Positions 12,062 through 17,913 of a DNA stretch of 64,000 nt are shown here, one piece after another (the first letter of the stretch is position 1; every line of letters starts with the position of its first letter). The notes beneath the pieces are model-generated. The model was not told where the DNA came from. It did no database searches and was given only the letters and a program-made list of their open reading frames with translations. The translations under genes and the position numbers were made by a program. The stretch is from Beggiatoa alba B18LD (GTDB taxonomy: Bacteria > Pseudomonadota > Gammaproteobacteria > Beggiatoales > Beggiatoaceae). The stretch is taken from NCBI RefSeq assembly GCF_000245015.1, contig NZ_JH600070.1, positions 2,204,634 through 2,268,633 of the forward strand. Reading direction: 5' to 3'.

Positions 12062-12471
12062 AGACCTACTAGGTCTGTTTTTTGTCTGAATCAGAATTCA
12101 CAGAATTTTCAGAATTAGCAGAATTAAAAACAATTAAAAATAATTAAAAATAATTAAAAATATAGTTTTTTATTCTTTTAATTTTCTTGTCTTTTTAATT
12201 CTGGAAATTCTGTTAATTCTGAAAATTCTGATTCAGACAATATTTTAATCTTGCCGATTAAAGTAAGGTCAAACAGACCTACTAGGTTTTCAAAACCTAG
12301 TAGGTCTTTTTTTTGTCTGAATCAGAATTCACAGAATTTTCAGAATTAGCAGAATTAAAAACAATTAAAAATATAATTTTTTATTCTTTTAATTTTCTTG
12401 TCTTTTTAATTCTGAAAATTCTGATTCAGACAAGCTGTTGTCTTTTTAAAATCTCGTAGAACTCAATTTAT
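12062..12471. repeat. Palindromic element R3, tandemly duplicated
   Basis: Two copies of an A-B unit follow each other with a period of about 231 bp. The first A is a contracted 15-bp palindrome at 12062-12076; the second is the full 33-bp form at 12275-12307. Module B lies at 12084-12238 and 12315-12431. The first roughly 60 bases of the two B copies are identical, and they then differ in the number of ten-base AATTAAAAAT units. The tail at 12448-12471 (AAATCTCGTAGAACTCAA) is a decayed right terminal repeat. The element fills the 540 bp between the DAG-kinase-like gene and the 47-residue peptide gene. Confidence 0.8.
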
Positions 12472-12490
12472 ATAATTGATTAATTTCCAT

Positions 12491-12525
12491 AAAAAAAGGC
12501 GATTCATGGTAGAAACGCCTTTTTT
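12491..12525 (-). terminator. Terminator of the C25 protease/peptide operon
   Basis: The stem AAAAAAAGGCG (12491-12501) pairs with CGCCTTTTT (12516-12525) around a 14-base loop. On the minus strand it ends in a T-run 20 bp after the stop of the 47-residue peptide gene. Confidence 0.8.
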
Positions 12526-12547
12526 ATGAGTGAGTTTTATCAATCAC

Positions 12548-12691
12548 TTATTCATCAAATGGACTGCATCCATGAACGGCAACATTTTTCAGTAATTCAT
12601 CTTGTTGAAAAACCTTAATGCTTGGCGGTTCATATAAGGGACGGTCGTCGACGGTTTCTTCTGTCGGTTTAGGTTGTTGCGTGTCGTTCAT
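12548..12691 (-). CDS. 47-residue peptide with YxxPxI motif, candidate modified-peptide precursor
   Basis: A short gene found by reading the gap. The ATG at 12691 is 11 bp after the stop of the FN3-like gene, with GAGG overlapping that stop, so it is translationally coupled; it ends at a TAA 20 bp before a clear terminator. The first 18 residues are acidic/polar (MNDTQQPKPTEETVDDRP). Then come Y20-E-P-P23-S-I25, an acidic-hydrophobic stretch with D31-E-L-L34, and a tail V39-H-G-C42-S-P-F-D-E47 with one Cys. Y-x-x-P-x-[LI] is the leader motif recognised by PqqD-like domains in lasso and some other RiPP precursors. No maturation enzyme is next to it, so a RiPP role is only a hypothesis. It may instead be a small partner of the protease. 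Confidence 0.65.
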   Translation of the reverse strand: MNDTQQPKPTEETVDDRPLYEPPSIKVFQQDELLKNVAVHGCSPFDE

Positions 12692-12702
12692 AAGCCTTGC
12701 CT

Positions 12703-13830
12703 CTATTCAATCGTTAAATGTTGTATTTCGCTATAAGCCTGATTGCCCACTTCATCTTGTCCAACCACACGCCAAATGAGATTAGTCGGTTTTGGTAACT
12801 GTTCGACCAGTGTTTGCCAGTCGTTGAATGGGGGCGTAAATGTGCTGGTTGCTGGAAGTTCGTAAACGGTTTGTCCATTATCAACAGAGTATTGTAGCTT
12901 GAATCCTGTGTAACTCTCTGTTGTCCATGCTAAAGTAGGCGATTGGGTTTTATCCGCCGTGCTGTTATCGGCGGGGCTTAGGATGGTAATGGCGTTAGGC
13001 ATGGCGGTGATAGGTTCATGAAATGTGCTCACGCCGTGCAAATCGATATCTTCCAATTTGTAGTAGTAGCGTTGTCCTACAATCGTGGTGTTATCGGTAA
13101 AGCCATAAGCACTGCCGACACCATCCGCAGGAATCAAGGCACTGGTTAGGCGTTGATATGTGCCGTCTTTGCTGTCACTGCGCCAAATATGAAAGCCTGC
13201 ATTGTCTAGCTCAAACGCGGTTTTCCATGTGAGCTTTACGCTGTCGGGCAAGCTGATGGCGTTGAAACTGGAGAGGGTGACGAGGAGGTCACCGCCAGCT
13301 CCACCCGCGCCGCCTGAAGGGTTTTGGTTTTCTTGGGTAGAGCAGAGGACGCAAGAGTTCAATGTAGTCGATGTGAAAGTGACACTATTAAAAATAATAA
13401 TACCATTGGGATTTGCACCACCGACAAAATTAGCACTGGCAACGGTGGACGCACCTGCATTAAAGTTAGTATTTGTAAAATAGTCAGTGTTGTTTGTTCC
13501 AGCTGGTGCAACGTTACTACATACTAATTTATAGACATTGGGAATGAAAAAATGGGGAATAGGAAAGCCACCAAAACTACTGAAAGTCAAGGTTGCATTT
13601 GAGCAATTGGTTGTATTATCAAATGTCCAATATTGTCTTGTGCAAGCAACTCCAGCAGGTAAATTCGTTGTTAAAACTGCAGTTGTTGTCCCACCACCAA
13701 TTGCAGTATTAGTCACGGTACAAGTTCCCCCGTCAGTCTGTAACTCCACTGCTAACGCATCAAACTGCACACCAGCAGTTAATCCCAGCGTGAAAAATAG
13801 CGGTAAAGCCTGTTTTAAACGTTCTTGCAT
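12703..13830 (-). CDS. Secreted protein with Cys-rich N-terminal region and FN3-like repeats
   Basis: 375 residues from the ATG at 13830, preceded by AGGGAG; a longer frame would start inside the protease gene. Residues 1-28 are a signal peptide. Residues 30-170 are Ser/Thr/Asn-rich with scattered Cys and end in a CVLC pair and a Gly-Ala linker. Residues about 180-275 match the FN3-like stretch LSSFNAISLPDSVKLTWKT followed by DNAGFHIWRS, common in secreted bacterial proteins. A second Ig/FN3-like domain (about 280-375) ends the chain. No membrane anchor is seen. It lies 22 bp after the C25 protease gene, so it may be a substrate, cofactor or surface partner of that enzyme. Confidence 0.75.
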   Translation of the reverse strand: MQERLKQALPLFFTLGLTAGVQFDALAVELQTDGGTCTVTNTAIGGGTTTAVLTTNLPAGVACTRQYWTFDNTTNCSNATLTFSSFGGFPIPHFFIPNVYKLVCSNVAPAGTNNTDYFTNTNFNAGASTVASANFVGGANPNGIIIFNSVTFTSTTLNSCVLCSTQENQNPSGGAGGAGGDLLVTLSSFNAISLPDSVKLTWKTAFELDNAGFHIWRSDSKDGTYQRLTSALIPADGVGSAYGFTDNTTIVGQRYYYKLEDIDLHGVSTFHEPITAMPNAITILSPADNSTADKTQSPTLAWTTESYTGFKLQYSVDNGQTVYELPATSTFTPPFNDWQTLVEQLPKPTNLIWRVVGQDEVGNQAYSEIQHLTIE

Positions 13831-13852
13831 GTTAAATAAACTCCCTAAAAAT

Positions 13853-16603
13853 TTATGGTAATTGGATATGCAAACTCGGTTCACCAAATAAGGTATAAAT
13901 TTCTAAATTATCGATAGAAACCCCATAAGTGGTCACGGCTTCTATTTTCGCACTGGTTACTAACGCACCTAGCTCAGTTTGCTGATTCACAAAAAGATTT
14001 TTAAACAACTCTTCTGACATCGCTGCGTGTTCAATGCTTGCCCCTAACCCTGTTGGTGCTAAAACAGCAATAGCCCCTTTGTTTGCTGTGTTTAATAAGG
14101 CTTCTGCGAGTGGGTTTTCAGTCGCTCGATAATTTGCAAATCGCCCATTAATACAACTTAGTATAACAGCAAATGTTAAGCGGTCTTGATTGGTTAAGGA
14201 AGCCACATCTGATGATTCGAACATGAATTCGCCTGCCCAGTTTTCTACGCCACCATGTCCATTATAACTGGTGACTAATGCGCCCTCATTTAAATATTTG
14301 ATAATATCCGCTTTTGCTAATGAACCACTGTCATTGTAAGCATTTAAATAAACGCTGTGAGCAATTTGATTGGGAATTCGATAAGTAATGAGATAGTTAG
14401 AAACGGCTTCAAATTCGGTTTCATTATCTGCAACAAATAAGACATTTTTTTGCCAATTATCCGTTGTTGTGCTGGGTTGGGTGTAGGCGATAATTTTATC
14501 GGTGACTGCCTCAACTTGTGCTTGTGTACGCACAGGTATTCGTCCTGCGATTAAATCAGGCAGTTGGTCATCACCGCTAACACTCACAAACCAGTTATCG
14601 GAGGCGGTATCGCCTAAACGAGGAGTTTTTAAAATATAAGTAGGTACATAATTAATGCCACCTGCTAAACGGTTTAAATAATCCTGATTCGCATCGCCAA
14701 TAAATAGCACGTAAGCGGGGCGCGGGCTTTGGTAATGCTGATAAGCGTAACTGATAAAGTCTTTAATTGCTTGTGGATTCATGACACCATTGTTGAAATC
14801 GTCATAAATATCTTGCGTCGTTGTACTTAATACTTGATGACCTTGTGTTTTTAAGTGATTCACTAAACGACTCACATCAAAACTTTCATGATAAATGACA
14901 AGATAATCCGCTTGTTGACACGGAGATTTTAACGGCGGGTCGTTGGGGATTTCTAAGTGCATGGCAGTCGGTTGATGGAGTAAAGCGACATCTAAGCCTA
15001 AGGCAAGCCATTTTTTAGCTGTGCTGAGGGTATCACCGAATAATAAGCTGTAAGTGCCATTGGTTTGGCGGGTGATTTGGGTATTAATATAAGGCTTTAC
15101 ATTATCAGGGTCGGTAATATCAACTAAAACGATAAAATCTGAGGTAAAGCCGTTGAGTTGGATGTTTATTTGCCCTGTTTCAGCCGTTGTAAAGGTCAGT
15201 TGATTATTTTCAGCGGTATAACTTGCGGTGTAATCCACTTCTAAGGCATCAACATAGAGTTCATCAACACTTGCGCCTGTTTTGCCTAAAGACGATAAAG
15301 TAATGGTATTTCTACCTTGAATCAGTTTATCTTGTGTAACTTCAATTTGATGGACAAAAGTCTCTTGTTCATCCCAATACGCATCTTGAATATTATCTTG
15401 ATTTAAAAAGACTAAGGTATGATGGTCAGGTGTGTAGTAAACATCGCCCGCCCGCCCTTGTAAATAAACACGCAAGTTAGCAGTTTCAGTCGCTTCTTTG
15501 ATTAGATTGGATAAAGTTACGGGCATCGCTTGTGAACCACCTGCGATTAAACGCGCCCAAAACCAGCCATTACTATCTTCTGTCGGCACTGCTCCCCAAT
15601 ATTCTTTATCCTCTTCGACCCGTTTACTCGCGCGAAATTGCGTTAATGGGGTTAAATCAGCGTGAGGCGTGCCATCTGCAAGACTCATGCGGGTTGTGCC
15701 ATCAAATTTTAGGGTTAAATCATAAACATTAGTGCGGGTATATTCGCCTGTCATGGCTTGTGCGTAGAAAAAAATCGCGTCGCTATCGTTAAATACGCCA
15801 TCCTCTTCCCCTAAAACATACAAGGGAATAGCTTGCCCCTGTAAACTCATTTCTATCCATCGCGGGTCAAATTGACTGATATCTAAACCGATTTTAAGAA
15901 AATCTTGTTTCGTTAAAAAATAAATCCCGTCTTTTTCTAGCATTAGCTGCAAGCGAATATTGCCTGCGGGGCAAGTTGTGCTTGTGGTCAATGCCCGCGT
16001 CTTGTTAGCGGATACAGTAACAGGGGAATAATTGAGCAAGGTTTGCTGTAAAACTTGATTAAAAACGGGTTGTGCTTCTGTCTCTGTTGATGACAAATTG
16101 CGTGTTGTGGGAGCGTTAAACCAGACTTTAACCGTTAATTGTTGATAAAAAGTTATTTGTTGCGCGTTTGCATCGTATAAAACGGGGTTAAAAATCACTT
16201 GCGTGATGGATTGCTCACGAATTTTTCCTGTTATTCCAAACTTAACGGGAGTTTGTGGTAAACCGTTTGTATCCGTGATAGCTAAACGGGCGGGCATGGT
16301 TTGTACGACACTGTCTAAAATTTCAATACGAGGCGTTGCGCCTTCTGGCGTTGCTAATAGCGTTCCGCGTAACGGGAGCGGTGCATCAGGGCGATAACTT
16401 GCGCCTGCTAATTGAACTTGGTATTGCGTTTCGCCTATCTCATCAGTGGTCGGGATAAGCTGTAAGCCATCACTGATTAACTGTAAGGTTGCAAATTGCG
16501 AATTGCTTTCAAGCAATTGAATCTCTGTTGTTGCAAAAGCCAGCGATTGAAACGATAAGAGCCAGAGGCTGATAAAAAAGCGGATGGTATTCAAATGAAA
16601 CAC
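13853..16603 (-). CDS. Secreted C25-family (gingipain-like) cysteine peptidase
   Basis: 916 residues. The signal peptide is residues 1-24 (cleavage near AFA-TTE). A long beta-rich propeptide-like region includes the Peptidase_C25 N-terminal pattern. The catalytic domain (about 560-870) has GDANQDYL, ASDNWFVSVSGDD, PDLIAGRIPVRT, the catalytic His783 in NGHGG and Cys817 in LSCINGRF. Family members cleave after Arg or Lys, or act as self-processing sortase-like enzymes in type IX secretion; no T9SS is expected in this lineage. It heads a three-gene minus-strand operon with the FN3-like protein and the 47-residue peptide. Confidence 0.9.
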   Translation of the reverse strand: MFHLNTIRFFISLWLLSFQSLAFATTEIQLLESNSQFATLQLISDGLQLIPTTDEIGETQYQVQLAGASYRPDAPLPLRGTLLATPEGATPRIEILDSVVQTMPARLAITDTNGLPQTPVKFGITGKIREQSITQVIFNPVLYDANAQQITFYQQLTVKVWFNAPTTRNLSSTETEAQPVFNQVLQQTLLNYSPVTVSANKTRALTTSTTCPAGNIRLQLMLEKDGIYFLTKQDFLKIGLDISQFDPRWIEMSLQGQAIPLYVLGEEDGVFNDSDAIFFYAQAMTGEYTRTNVYDLTLKFDGTTRMSLADGTPHADLTPLTQFRASKRVEEDKEYWGAVPTEDSNGWFWARLIAGGSQAMPVTLSNLIKEATETANLRVYLQGRAGDVYYTPDHHTLVFLNQDNIQDAYWDEQETFVHQIEVTQDKLIQGRNTITLSSLGKTGASVDELYVDALEVDYTASYTAENNQLTFTTAETGQINIQLNGFTSDFIVLVDITDPDNVKPYINTQITRQTNGTYSLLFGDTLSTAKKWLALGLDVALLHQPTAMHLEIPNDPPLKSPCQQADYLVIYHESFDVSRLVNHLKTQGHQVLSTTTQDIYDDFNNGVMNPQAIKDFISYAYQHYQSPRPAYVLFIGDANQDYLNRLAGGINYVPTYILKTPRLGDTASDNWFVSVSGDDQLPDLIAGRIPVRTQAQVEAVTDKIIAYTQPSTTTDNWQKNVLFVADNETEFEAVSNYLITYRIPNQIAHSVYLNAYNDSGSLAKADIIKYLNEGALVTSYNGHGGVENWAGEFMFESSDVASLTNQDRLTFAVILSCINGRFANYRATENPLAEALLNTANKGAIAVLAPTGLGASIEHAAMSEELFKNLFVNQQTELGALVTSAKIEAVTTYGVSIDNLEIYTLFGEPSLHIQLP

Positions 16604-16832: not shown

Positions 16833-17531
16833 ATGTTTAGTTTACGTCCTTCTCAAGAACGCGGGCACGCAAATCACGGTTGGTTAGATACCTATCACAG
16901 TTTTTCTTTTGCTGATTATTATGACCCTCAGCATATGCAATTTGGCGCATTGCGGGTGATTAATGAAGACACTGTTATTCCCGCCGCTGGCTTTCCTATG
17001 CATGGTCATAGCAATATGGAAATCGTGACTTATATTTTAGAAGGTCAATTAGCGCATCGGGATAGCATGGGCAATAGTGCGGTGATTCGTAAAGGCGAAG
17101 TACAACGCATGAGTGCAGGCACAGGGGTAAATCACAGCGAATATAATGCTTCTTCTCAAGAAAATGTGCATTTATTACAGATTTGGATTAAACCCAATCA
17201 GTTAAACCTTCCGCCAAGTTATGAGCAGAAAGCCTTTACTGTGGCAGAACAAGCAGGCGAATTTGTCCTCGTAGGTTCACCCGATGGGCGTTTTGGTTCT
17301 GTAACGATTCATCAAGATGTCTTGTTATACGCAGCACAGTTAAAGCAGGGACAAACAACCGTCATGACATTAAGCCCTAACCGTCGGATTTATTTGCACA
17401 TCGCACGCGGTACGCTTGAAGCTAATGGACATGTCTTGCAAAGTGGTGACGCAATGACTATTGAAGCGGAGACAAACTTGCAATTAACTGCTATGGAACA
17501 TGCTGAAGTTTTACTCTTTGATTTAGCATAA
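16833..17531 (+). CDS. Pirin-family cupin protein (YhhW-like quercetinase)
   Basis: 232 residues in two cupin domains. The N-terminal one holds the metal ligands H57, H59, H101 and E103 (MHGHSN and GVNHSEYN), the same set as E. coli YhhW. AGGGGG lies ahead of the ATG. Characterised relatives open the ring of quercetin with O2; in bacteria the natural role is often oxidative-stress related. A palindromic candidate operator lies upstream. The gene is monocistronic and followed by element R4. Confidence 0.93.
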   Translation: MFSLRPSQERGHANHGWLDTYHSFSFADYYDPQHMQFGALRVINEDTVIPAAGFPMHGHSNMEIVTYILEGQLAHRDSMGNSAVIRKGEVQRMSAGTGVNHSEYNASSQENVHLLQIWIKPNQLNLPPSYEQKAFTVAEQAGEFVLVGSPDGRFGSVTIHQDVLLYAAQLKQGQTTVMTLSPNRRIYLHIARGTLEANGHVLQSGDAMTIEAETNLQLTAMEHAEVLLFDLA

Positions 17532-17553: not shown

Positions 17554-17863
17554 AGACCTACTAGGTTTTAAAAACCTAGTAGGTCTGTCAGAACATGTGA
17601 AAAGGATTCATCAGAGAAGATTAAATATTGTCTGAATCAAGATTTTCAGGATTAACAGGATTTAAAACCCTTAAACCAAAAAACTAAGGCGAATAACGCT
17701 TTTTAATTCTGCTAATTCTGAAAATTCTGTGAATTCTGATTCAGACAAAAAAAGACCTAACAAGATTAAAACATTGTCTGAATCAGGATTTTCAGGATAA
17801 CTAAGGTGAATAATGCTTTTTAATTCTGCTAATTCTGAAAATTCTGTGAATTCTGATTCAGAC
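17554..17863. repeat. Palindromic element R4 with two module B copies
   Basis: Module A is at 17554-17586. Module B copies lie at 17630-17746 and 17776-17863, each bounded by GTCTGAATCA and CTGATTCAGAC. In both B copies the left arm uses GGATT units and the right arm AATTCTG units, so the arms are mismatched at the variable base, unlike R1, R3 and R8. The second B is internally shortened. Clear terminal repeats are missing; the pirin stop is followed by AACTCCAGTTTT, a possible relic. The element fills the 382 bp between pirin and the nitroreductase gene. Confidence 0.8.
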
Positions 17864-17913
17864 AAATAGCTGATATTTCATCCCGTTATCTCTACATTGA
17901 AAGGAAACCAAAC

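Follow-up and report, generated by a model that had tools for sequence, protein, structure and literature searches.

A 47-residue peptide encoded with a C25 protease in Beggiatoa alba is a probable RiPP-type precursor

In Beggiatoa alba B18LD, the genes of a C25-family cysteine protease, a protein with fibronectin type III (FN3) domains and a 47-aa peptide form a three-gene operon on the minus strand at 12548-16603, followed by a terminator-like hairpin. Coordinates refer to the window, which is the whole stretch of 64,000 nucleotides that was analysed (contig NZ_JH600070.1, positions 2,204,634 to 2,268,633). Sequence comparison gives good support to the view that the peptide is a precursor of the type known from ribosomally synthesized and post-translationally modified peptides (RiPPs). 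We consider it probable that it is the precursor of a PqqD-dependent, phosphorylated RiPP, similar in logic to the linear polyphosphorylated peptides (LPPs) and made by the steps proposed below. Its end product is most likely a secreted, modified peptide of a type about which little is known.

The comparison of the window genome (G000) with a genus-mate (G001) shows that the peptide gene is genuine and evolves under purifying selection. Of 47 aligned codons, 27 differ and 11 of these change the residue; the differences at codon positions 1, 2 and 3 number 7, 8 and 25. In the last 28 codons, 12 differ with one residue change. The frame is short and has no Pfam or NCBIfam match, as would be expected of a chance or untranslated frame. 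However, this explanation was rejected because of the codon-position bias and the near-perfect conservation of the C-terminal residues in G001. Homologues with a fixed motif spacing also speak against it, and it is very unlikely, verging on negligible. The features of the operon are as follows:

13853-16603, minus strand: secreted C25 (gingipain/PorU superfamily) cysteine protease, 916 aa, GTG start, with a signal-like N-terminus (by eye), a propeptide-like region and His783/Cys817
12703-13830, minus strand: secreted-looking protein, 375 aa, whose C-terminal part holds two FN3 domains in tandem (roughly residues 180-280 and 281-375)
12700-12704, minus strand: AGAGG, a Shine-Dalgarno-like site read by eye, overlapping the stop codon of the FN3 gene
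12548-12691, minus strand: precursor-like peptide, 47 aa, defined by its frame, homologues and alignments
12617-12634, minus strand: leader motif Y20-E-P-P23-S-I25 (Y-x-x-P-x-I), the expected PqqD-binding site judging from conservation and literature
12572-12616, minus strand: spacer from leader motif to core, residues 26-40, of fixed length in Thiotrichaceae
12563-12568, minus strand: core Cys42-Ser43, from the peptide alignments
12484-12528, minus strand: terminator-like hairpin with a T-run, 3' of the peptide gene (-16.9 kcal/mol, z -6.2)

The AGAGG lies 8 nt 5' of the peptide ATG (by eye). A simple terminator scan did not list the hairpin at 12484-12528. Thus, three coupled frames that end in a terminator, as proposed in a preliminary description made from the letters of this DNA, are all present, and Y20, P23, I25, C42 and S43 of the peptide stand as described there.

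We divided the peptides into class 1, which contain Cys, and class 2, which lack it and end in ..GFSF. All eight aligned class-1 peptides, including that of the window, keep Y20, P23, I25, L34, K35, V39, G41, C42 and S43. In a larger alignment of 14 peptides (these eight, one further class-1, two class-2 and three distant peptides), M1, Y20, P23, I25 and S43 are invariant, and the Ser usually lies within G/A-C-S. Tyr and Ser are 23 residues apart in 13 of 13 Thiotrichaceae peptides and, counted by eye, 24 apart in peptides of three other lineages (L137, L143 and L145). Homologues occur in Thiotrichaceae, Desulfobacteraceae, Myxococcota and Aminicenantes. In the window genome, the only match of the peptide profile up to an E-value of 1 was the peptide of the operon itself. 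Among 42 genomes of the family, nine gave matches at E <1e-3 (G000, G001, G004, G017, G028, G031, G035, G061 and G062), some of them broken or cut by a contig end. Among 369 evenly drawn gammaproteobacterial genomes, few of them from the family, the profile A3 matched the window genome only. Weak tblastn matches to frames of 582-641 aa (G001, G006, G015, G019, G021, G025 and G033) were set aside, because these frames have one sequence context in common and encode another protein, and so was the match at G019:C5:341711 (E 0.006), which has no leader motif.

The preliminary description had named loss of the frame in relatives that keep the protease as the result that would speak against it. This check did not refute it. 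Seven genomes encode a close homologue of C25, and five of them have the peptide near it: G000, G001, G017, G031 and G035, in the last with an interrupted frame. In the other two, G002 and G029, both fragmented metagenome-assembled genomes, no peptide was found. The modelled chance of finding a peptide near C25, calculated per genome in 26-kb windows, was 0.006 for G000 and for G001 (which share history), 3e-5 for G017, 9e-4 for G031 and 0.005 for G035.

The gene neighbourhoods point to modification of the peptide. In G017:C400 (L055), three C25 genes are followed by an S26 protease, a radical SAM enzyme with a SPASM domain (rSAM), the peptide, an HprK-like kinase and PqqD, with secreted-looking proteins between. 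G031:C199 (L059) has C25, rSAM, peptide, HprK and PqqD. Both loci bear out the earlier reading of the leader as RiPP-type. In L056, L057 and L058 the peptide and an NTP_transf_5 gene stand next to C25, with HprK frames in two of the three. L060 has an interrupted peptide frame and then an ABC ATPase and a permease, and in G001 the same-strand order is ABC ATPase, S26 protease, C25, FN3, peptide. The four loci of class-2 peptides (L084, L088, L116 and L118) all carry PqqD and HprK; S26 was found in three and NTP_transf_5 in two. None of the four, one of which (L116) is a 4.6-kb contig, gave a match to the hidden Markov models (HMMs) of rSAM or C25. Since the peptides without Cys occur at loci without a match to the rSAM HMM, the rSAM may act at the Cys. 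An intact close rSAM orthologue is present only in G000, G001 and G017 among 36 genomes. Intact class-1 peptides occur in the same three, two of which belong to one genus, and this coincidence also led us to assign the rSAM to the Cys region. G004 gave no match to the rSAM, and its class-1 peptide is broken. In G018, a broken rSAM orthologue lies near a C25 fragment on one contig (L114, G018:C19) with no peptide match, which looks like the remains of a cassette.

The peptide could instead be an unmodified cytoplasmic regulator or inhibitor that keeps C25 inactive before export. The tight coupling in the operon and the absence, by eye, of a signal-like segment in the peptide agree with this. 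However, homologues stand beside PqqD, HprK, rSAM and S26 genes and also at loci without C25, the protease already has a propeptide-like domain, and conservation is concentrated in the leader motif and the short core. We give an inhibitor only a small chance.

All parts of the cassette are present in the window genome, but dispersed. The HprK-like kinase (372 aa) and PqqD (90 aa) genes overlap at L075:7845-9183, and their products show identities of 45% and 46% to the corresponding two proteins encoded next to the peptide of G017:C400. The rSAM lies at L111:8741-10144 (44% over 458 aa with the G017 enzyme), and the ABC ATPase and S26 at L112:8826-10242 (61% and 55% identity with the G001 pair). 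An NTP_transf_5 gene (PF14907, E 2e-62), unlinked to the peptide, and a permease like that of L060 are found at L077; these own genes are among the rows of the local HMMs. By eye, the HprK keeps the motif ADSGCGKTT and the S26 a Ser/His/Asp pattern. The rSAM has C105-x3-C-x2-C and the SPASM cysteines C409-x2-C-x5-C-x3-C422. The PqqD passes the model TIGR04353 PqqD_rel_X (37.4 bits, cut-off 35), and the S26 of L055 just passes TIGR02228 (52.3 bits, cut-off 51.85). The genome has two PqqD genes (PF05402), one of them beside the HprK-like kinase; the second (L076), judged by eye to lie in a pqq-like operon from its neighbours, was set aside. Thus, the PqqD-like and radical SAM genes that the preliminary description suggested looking for elsewhere do exist. 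The genes of L075 and L077 stand among polysaccharide-looking genes, by eye and not by a search. Because of the dispersal, the pairing of peptide and enzymes in this genome rests on orthology. By eye, no short frame with a convincing Y-x-x-P-x-I lies near the modification genes, which leaves the peptide of the operon as the sole candidate substrate found.

The following pathway may be proposed. The discrete PqqD encoded beside the HprK-like kinase very probably binds Y20-x-x-P23-x-I25. The HprK-like kinase may phosphorylate Ser43, judging from LPP and lasso peptide chemistry, and the NTP_transf_5 protein might decorate this phosphate. The rSAM/SPASM enzyme would modify the core at or near Cys42. 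By analogy, the S26 signal-peptidase-like protease would remove the leader and the ABC transporter would export the product. Outside the cytoplasm, the secreted C25 protease may hydrolyse the exported peptide or the FN3 partner, which is the least certain step. The steps are assigned by analogy, and both their chemistry and the part played by C25 are inferences.

LPPs are RiPPs described in 2026 by Popov et al. and called restricted to Bacillota (PMC13381572). In the biosynthesis of one LPP, a YxxP leader, a known motif for RiPP recognition elements (RREs) (PMC12710340, PMC13381572), is bound by an RRE, and a single core Ser receives several phosphates from the HprK-like kinase (PMC13381572). 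The signal-peptidase-like protease LppS requires the RRE for leader cutting, the NTP transferase had no effect in the host used, and LPP clusters were found in capsule loci (PMC13381572). The cassettes described here share with LPP a short precursor with a YxxPx(V/I) leader and a discrete PqqD-family RRE. Their genes for an HprK-like kinase, for a protease resembling archaeal-type signal peptidases, for a putative NTP transferase and for ABC proteins may correspond to the kinase, protease, NTP transferase and transporter of LPP. The leader motif YxxPx(V/L/I) is present in 14 of 14 aligned peptides, and the discrete PqqD is unlinked in the window genome and linked in L055, L059, L137, L143 and L145. 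In contrast to LPP, these cassettes occur in Pseudomonadota and other phyla and contain in addition an rSAM enzyme, a C25 protease and an FN3 protein. The tail is V/A-x-G/A-C-S instead of FETxxS, and the distance from Tyr to Ser is longer. The LPP exporter is MsbA-like, whereas the linked ABC genes here appear to be an ATPase and a separate permease. The best NCBIfam model for the linked ATPase was drrA, below the cut-off, and a separate permease was found in L060, L067 and L140; an MsbA-like exporter was not searched for. We take LppN to be a member of the PF14907 family, which is an assumption only.

Other known systems are less similar. Phosphorylated lasso peptides (paeninodin, pseudomycoidin) also have an RRE leader motif, an HprK-like kinase acting on a core Ser and a nucleotidyltransferase (PMC8498205). 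In contrast, inspection by eye of the lists of open reading frames, without a search, showed neither a lasso (macrolactam) cyclase nor a B2 protease in the cassettes of the peptide. Both seem to be present in L083 (G017:C479), a lasso-type locus by its sequence, with asparagine-synthase-like, PqqD and HprK-like frames; G017 also has LPP-like cassettes, and coexistence of lasso-type and LPP loci was reported in Bacilli (PMC13381572). HPr-rel-A (TIGR04352/TIGR04353) and SynChlorMet (TIGR04248-04251) share the PqqD-family protein and the HprK-like kinase, but the HprK of the window genome is far below the TIGR04352 cut-off and the ScmD cut-off is not reached. To our knowledge, the precursor, S26 and C25 are not part of these models. 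The closest NCBIfam models of the Thiotrichaceae rSAMs are the SCIFF, PapB and Nif11 maturases, and the SPASM cysteines are present; the scores, however, are far below the curated cut-offs, and different models give the highest scores for the rSAMs from other phyla. Among the open-access papers listed in our searches, judged by titles and abstract openings, we recognised no C25 protease in a RiPP pathway and found nothing on HPr-rel-A/PF14907 or SynChlorMet. Another type of RiPP precursor may be encoded in G022, where two short peptides with YHTPKL..ELG stand beside PqqD and NTP_transf_5 frames (L087:9224-9762).

The protease belongs to Peptidase_C25 (PF01364, E 2.4e-78, 264.4 bits with a gathering score of 23) and has a Propeptide_C25 match (E 1.4e-7). 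His783 and Cys817 are conserved in 14 of 14 aligned homologues. Its predicted structure (mean pLDDT 62.5) was too poor for a fold search. The catalytic domain, the His/Cys dyad and the propeptide-like region are shared with gingipains and PorU, whereas the operon partner here is a peptide. In PorU orthologues, the residue 32 positions beyond the catalytic Cys is a conserved Arg (PMC4560394). A PorU-like reaction, in which C25 as a transpeptidase joins the modified peptide to FN3-domain surface proteins, has a slight chance. In the PDB, the C25 profile finds RgpB (4ief, E 4e-24), PorU (6za2, E 9e-21) and Kgp, and in many partner proteins the FN3-like domain is located toward the C-terminus. Against this, the position of the PorU Arg is Gly852, invariant in 14 of 14 family members, and the PorU model NF033707 gives 248.5 bits with a cut-off of 420. 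Hydrolysis is likelier than transpeptidation, since the catalytic pair is kept and the PorU Arg is not. The idea that C25 cuts after Lys35, which is invariant in class-1 peptides, was not used. At the position that aligns with the S1 Asp of RgpB, 12 of 14 homologues carry an acidic residue, whereas G001 has Gln and L056 has Lys. In the distant peptides linked to C25, Glu stands in the place of Lys35.

The FN3 gene was listed as a frame at 12703-13887 from TTG. A start at the ATG at 13830, which gives 375 aa, is more likely, as the homologue of the genus-mate starts with the corresponding Met. The model of the protein is confident only at residues 183-375, which match tandem FN3 domains; residues 1-182 were not modelled with confidence. 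Among the fold matches listed for this part there is no C-terminal domain of the type IX secretion system (T9SS), which excludes nothing, and T9SS genes were not searched for in the genome. FN3-like domains match in 11 of 36 genomes, with one copy each in G000 and G001 and 21 in G017, where the domain is so common that single neighbourhoods prove little. In L061 and L062 (G017:C166 and C191), class-1 peptides lie directly downstream of secreted-looking FN3-domain proteins, at loci without C25. The domain adjoins C25 in L137 and L146 and is inside the C25 protein in L143.

It is possible that the peptide is a RiPP precursor as proposed, and that the protease and the FN3 protein never touch it, being no more than co-regulated cargo of the cell surface. 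The peptides of L061, L062 and the four class-2 loci without C25 agree with this, and in LPP the S26-type LppS suffices for leader removal (PMC13381572). In contrast, C25, the FN3-like domain and the peptide occur together also in L137 and L143, and in the window the Shine-Dalgarno-like site of the peptide gene overlaps the end of the FN3 gene that precedes it. We regard the cargo explanation as unlikely, though of real weight. Of the preliminary description, the RiPP-type precursor thus stood; a protease that trims, exports or is controlled by the peptide remained a supposition. The peptides of L061 and L062 lie at loci without C25, and S26 is the better candidate for leader removal by analogy with LppS (PMC13381572).

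We also compared C25 loci of other phyla by scanning named genomes with the C25 alignment, which gave 39 loci. At least one cassette gene was found by the local HMMs at 18 of them, 9 of 14 in Thiotrichaceae and 9 of 25 elsewhere; of the nine elsewhere, L157 was counted on a single PqqD hit, and L140 has only a weak peptide match (E 0.32). In L137 (Desulfobacteraceae), L143 (Myxococcota) and L145 (Aminicenantes), a peptide that contains YEPP(K/R)I and ACSP occurs together with C25, PqqD and an HprK-like kinase; a radical SAM gene comes directly after the peptide, and L137 and L143 additionally carry S26 and NTP_transf_5. An HMM built without these three peptides found them among the 39 loci at E 3e-7, 5e-4 and 6e-5, respectively. 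In Coatesbacteria (G412), a short Y-x-x-P-x-I peptide (E 4e-4) precedes two C25-like genes. At L169:9760-9882 and 1623-1736 of the same genome, peptides with YERPTIKI..LGPSLSCTGFGGSANC and YEVPRVI..FGGAAIC lie next to genes resembling C25 and to FN3-like domains. A C25 tree with 54 rows placed the window protease in a clade of 17, which are Thiotrichaceae according to their records or their kinship; 13 of the 17 bear the label cassette-linked. This label changes 11 times on the tree, compared to 17.6 in shuffles. Near-copies inflate the difference, and the labels depend on the flank length covered.

Several results weigh against the proposed pathway. The peptide of the window genome is about 1.4 Mb from PqqD/HprK, 2.1 Mb from the rSAM and 1.6 Mb from the ABC-S26 pair. 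The HprK reaches 59.4 bits, where the model TIGR04352 HprK_rel_A requires 200. Likewise, no rSAM from L055, L111, L137, L143 or L145 attains the cut-off of any of its 25 best NCBIfam models listed. The peptides of L061 and L062 have no modification gene at their loci, and close C25 genes in L063, L064 and L068, as well as the locus L152, have no cassette gene. In a divergent C25 subfamily of the same bacterial family, a cassette gene was found at 0 of 20 loci, where 15 of the stretches are only 2.9-5.7 kb long and some overlap. The rSAMs of other phyla are of another kind than the Thiotrichaceae enzyme, whose HMM found none in L137 and L145 and gave only weak matches in L143 and L146. The window peptide has no HQ or FET of the full LPP consensus YxxPxVLxHQxIxFETxxS (PMC13381572), and for this reason we did not file it as LPP. 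The rSAM difference and the exporter result do not change our estimate, because neither carries the precursor claim.

Near the operon, SESEFTEFSELAELK-coding short frames flank it at 12313-12459 (plus strand) and 17671-17865 (minus strand). Such frames recur elsewhere in the genome (L077) and look like a dispersed repeat family. A pirin-like gene at 16833-17531 is divergent from the C25 operon.

Compared to LPP, the phyla, the rSAM enzymes and the C25 and FN3 partners are new. More speculatively, and with low probability, these loci form a RiPP class across phyla, in which a phosphorylated, rSAM-modified exported peptide is handled by C25 together with FN3 surface proteins, possibly being joined or released by cutting. 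If this is true, the class would represent a peptide-based maturation of surface proteins that uses C25 outside type IX secretion. LPPs were presented as a Bacillota family without an assigned role, and similar machinery with a recognisable precursor, extended by a radical SAM enzyme and a C25 protease, is now found in giant sulfur bacteria, Desulfobacteraceae, Myxococcota and Aminicenantes. The peptides give a defined precursor family for cassettes with PqqD, HprK-like kinase and NTP_transf_5 genes, and they make a role of C25 proteases beyond gingipains and PorU directly testable.

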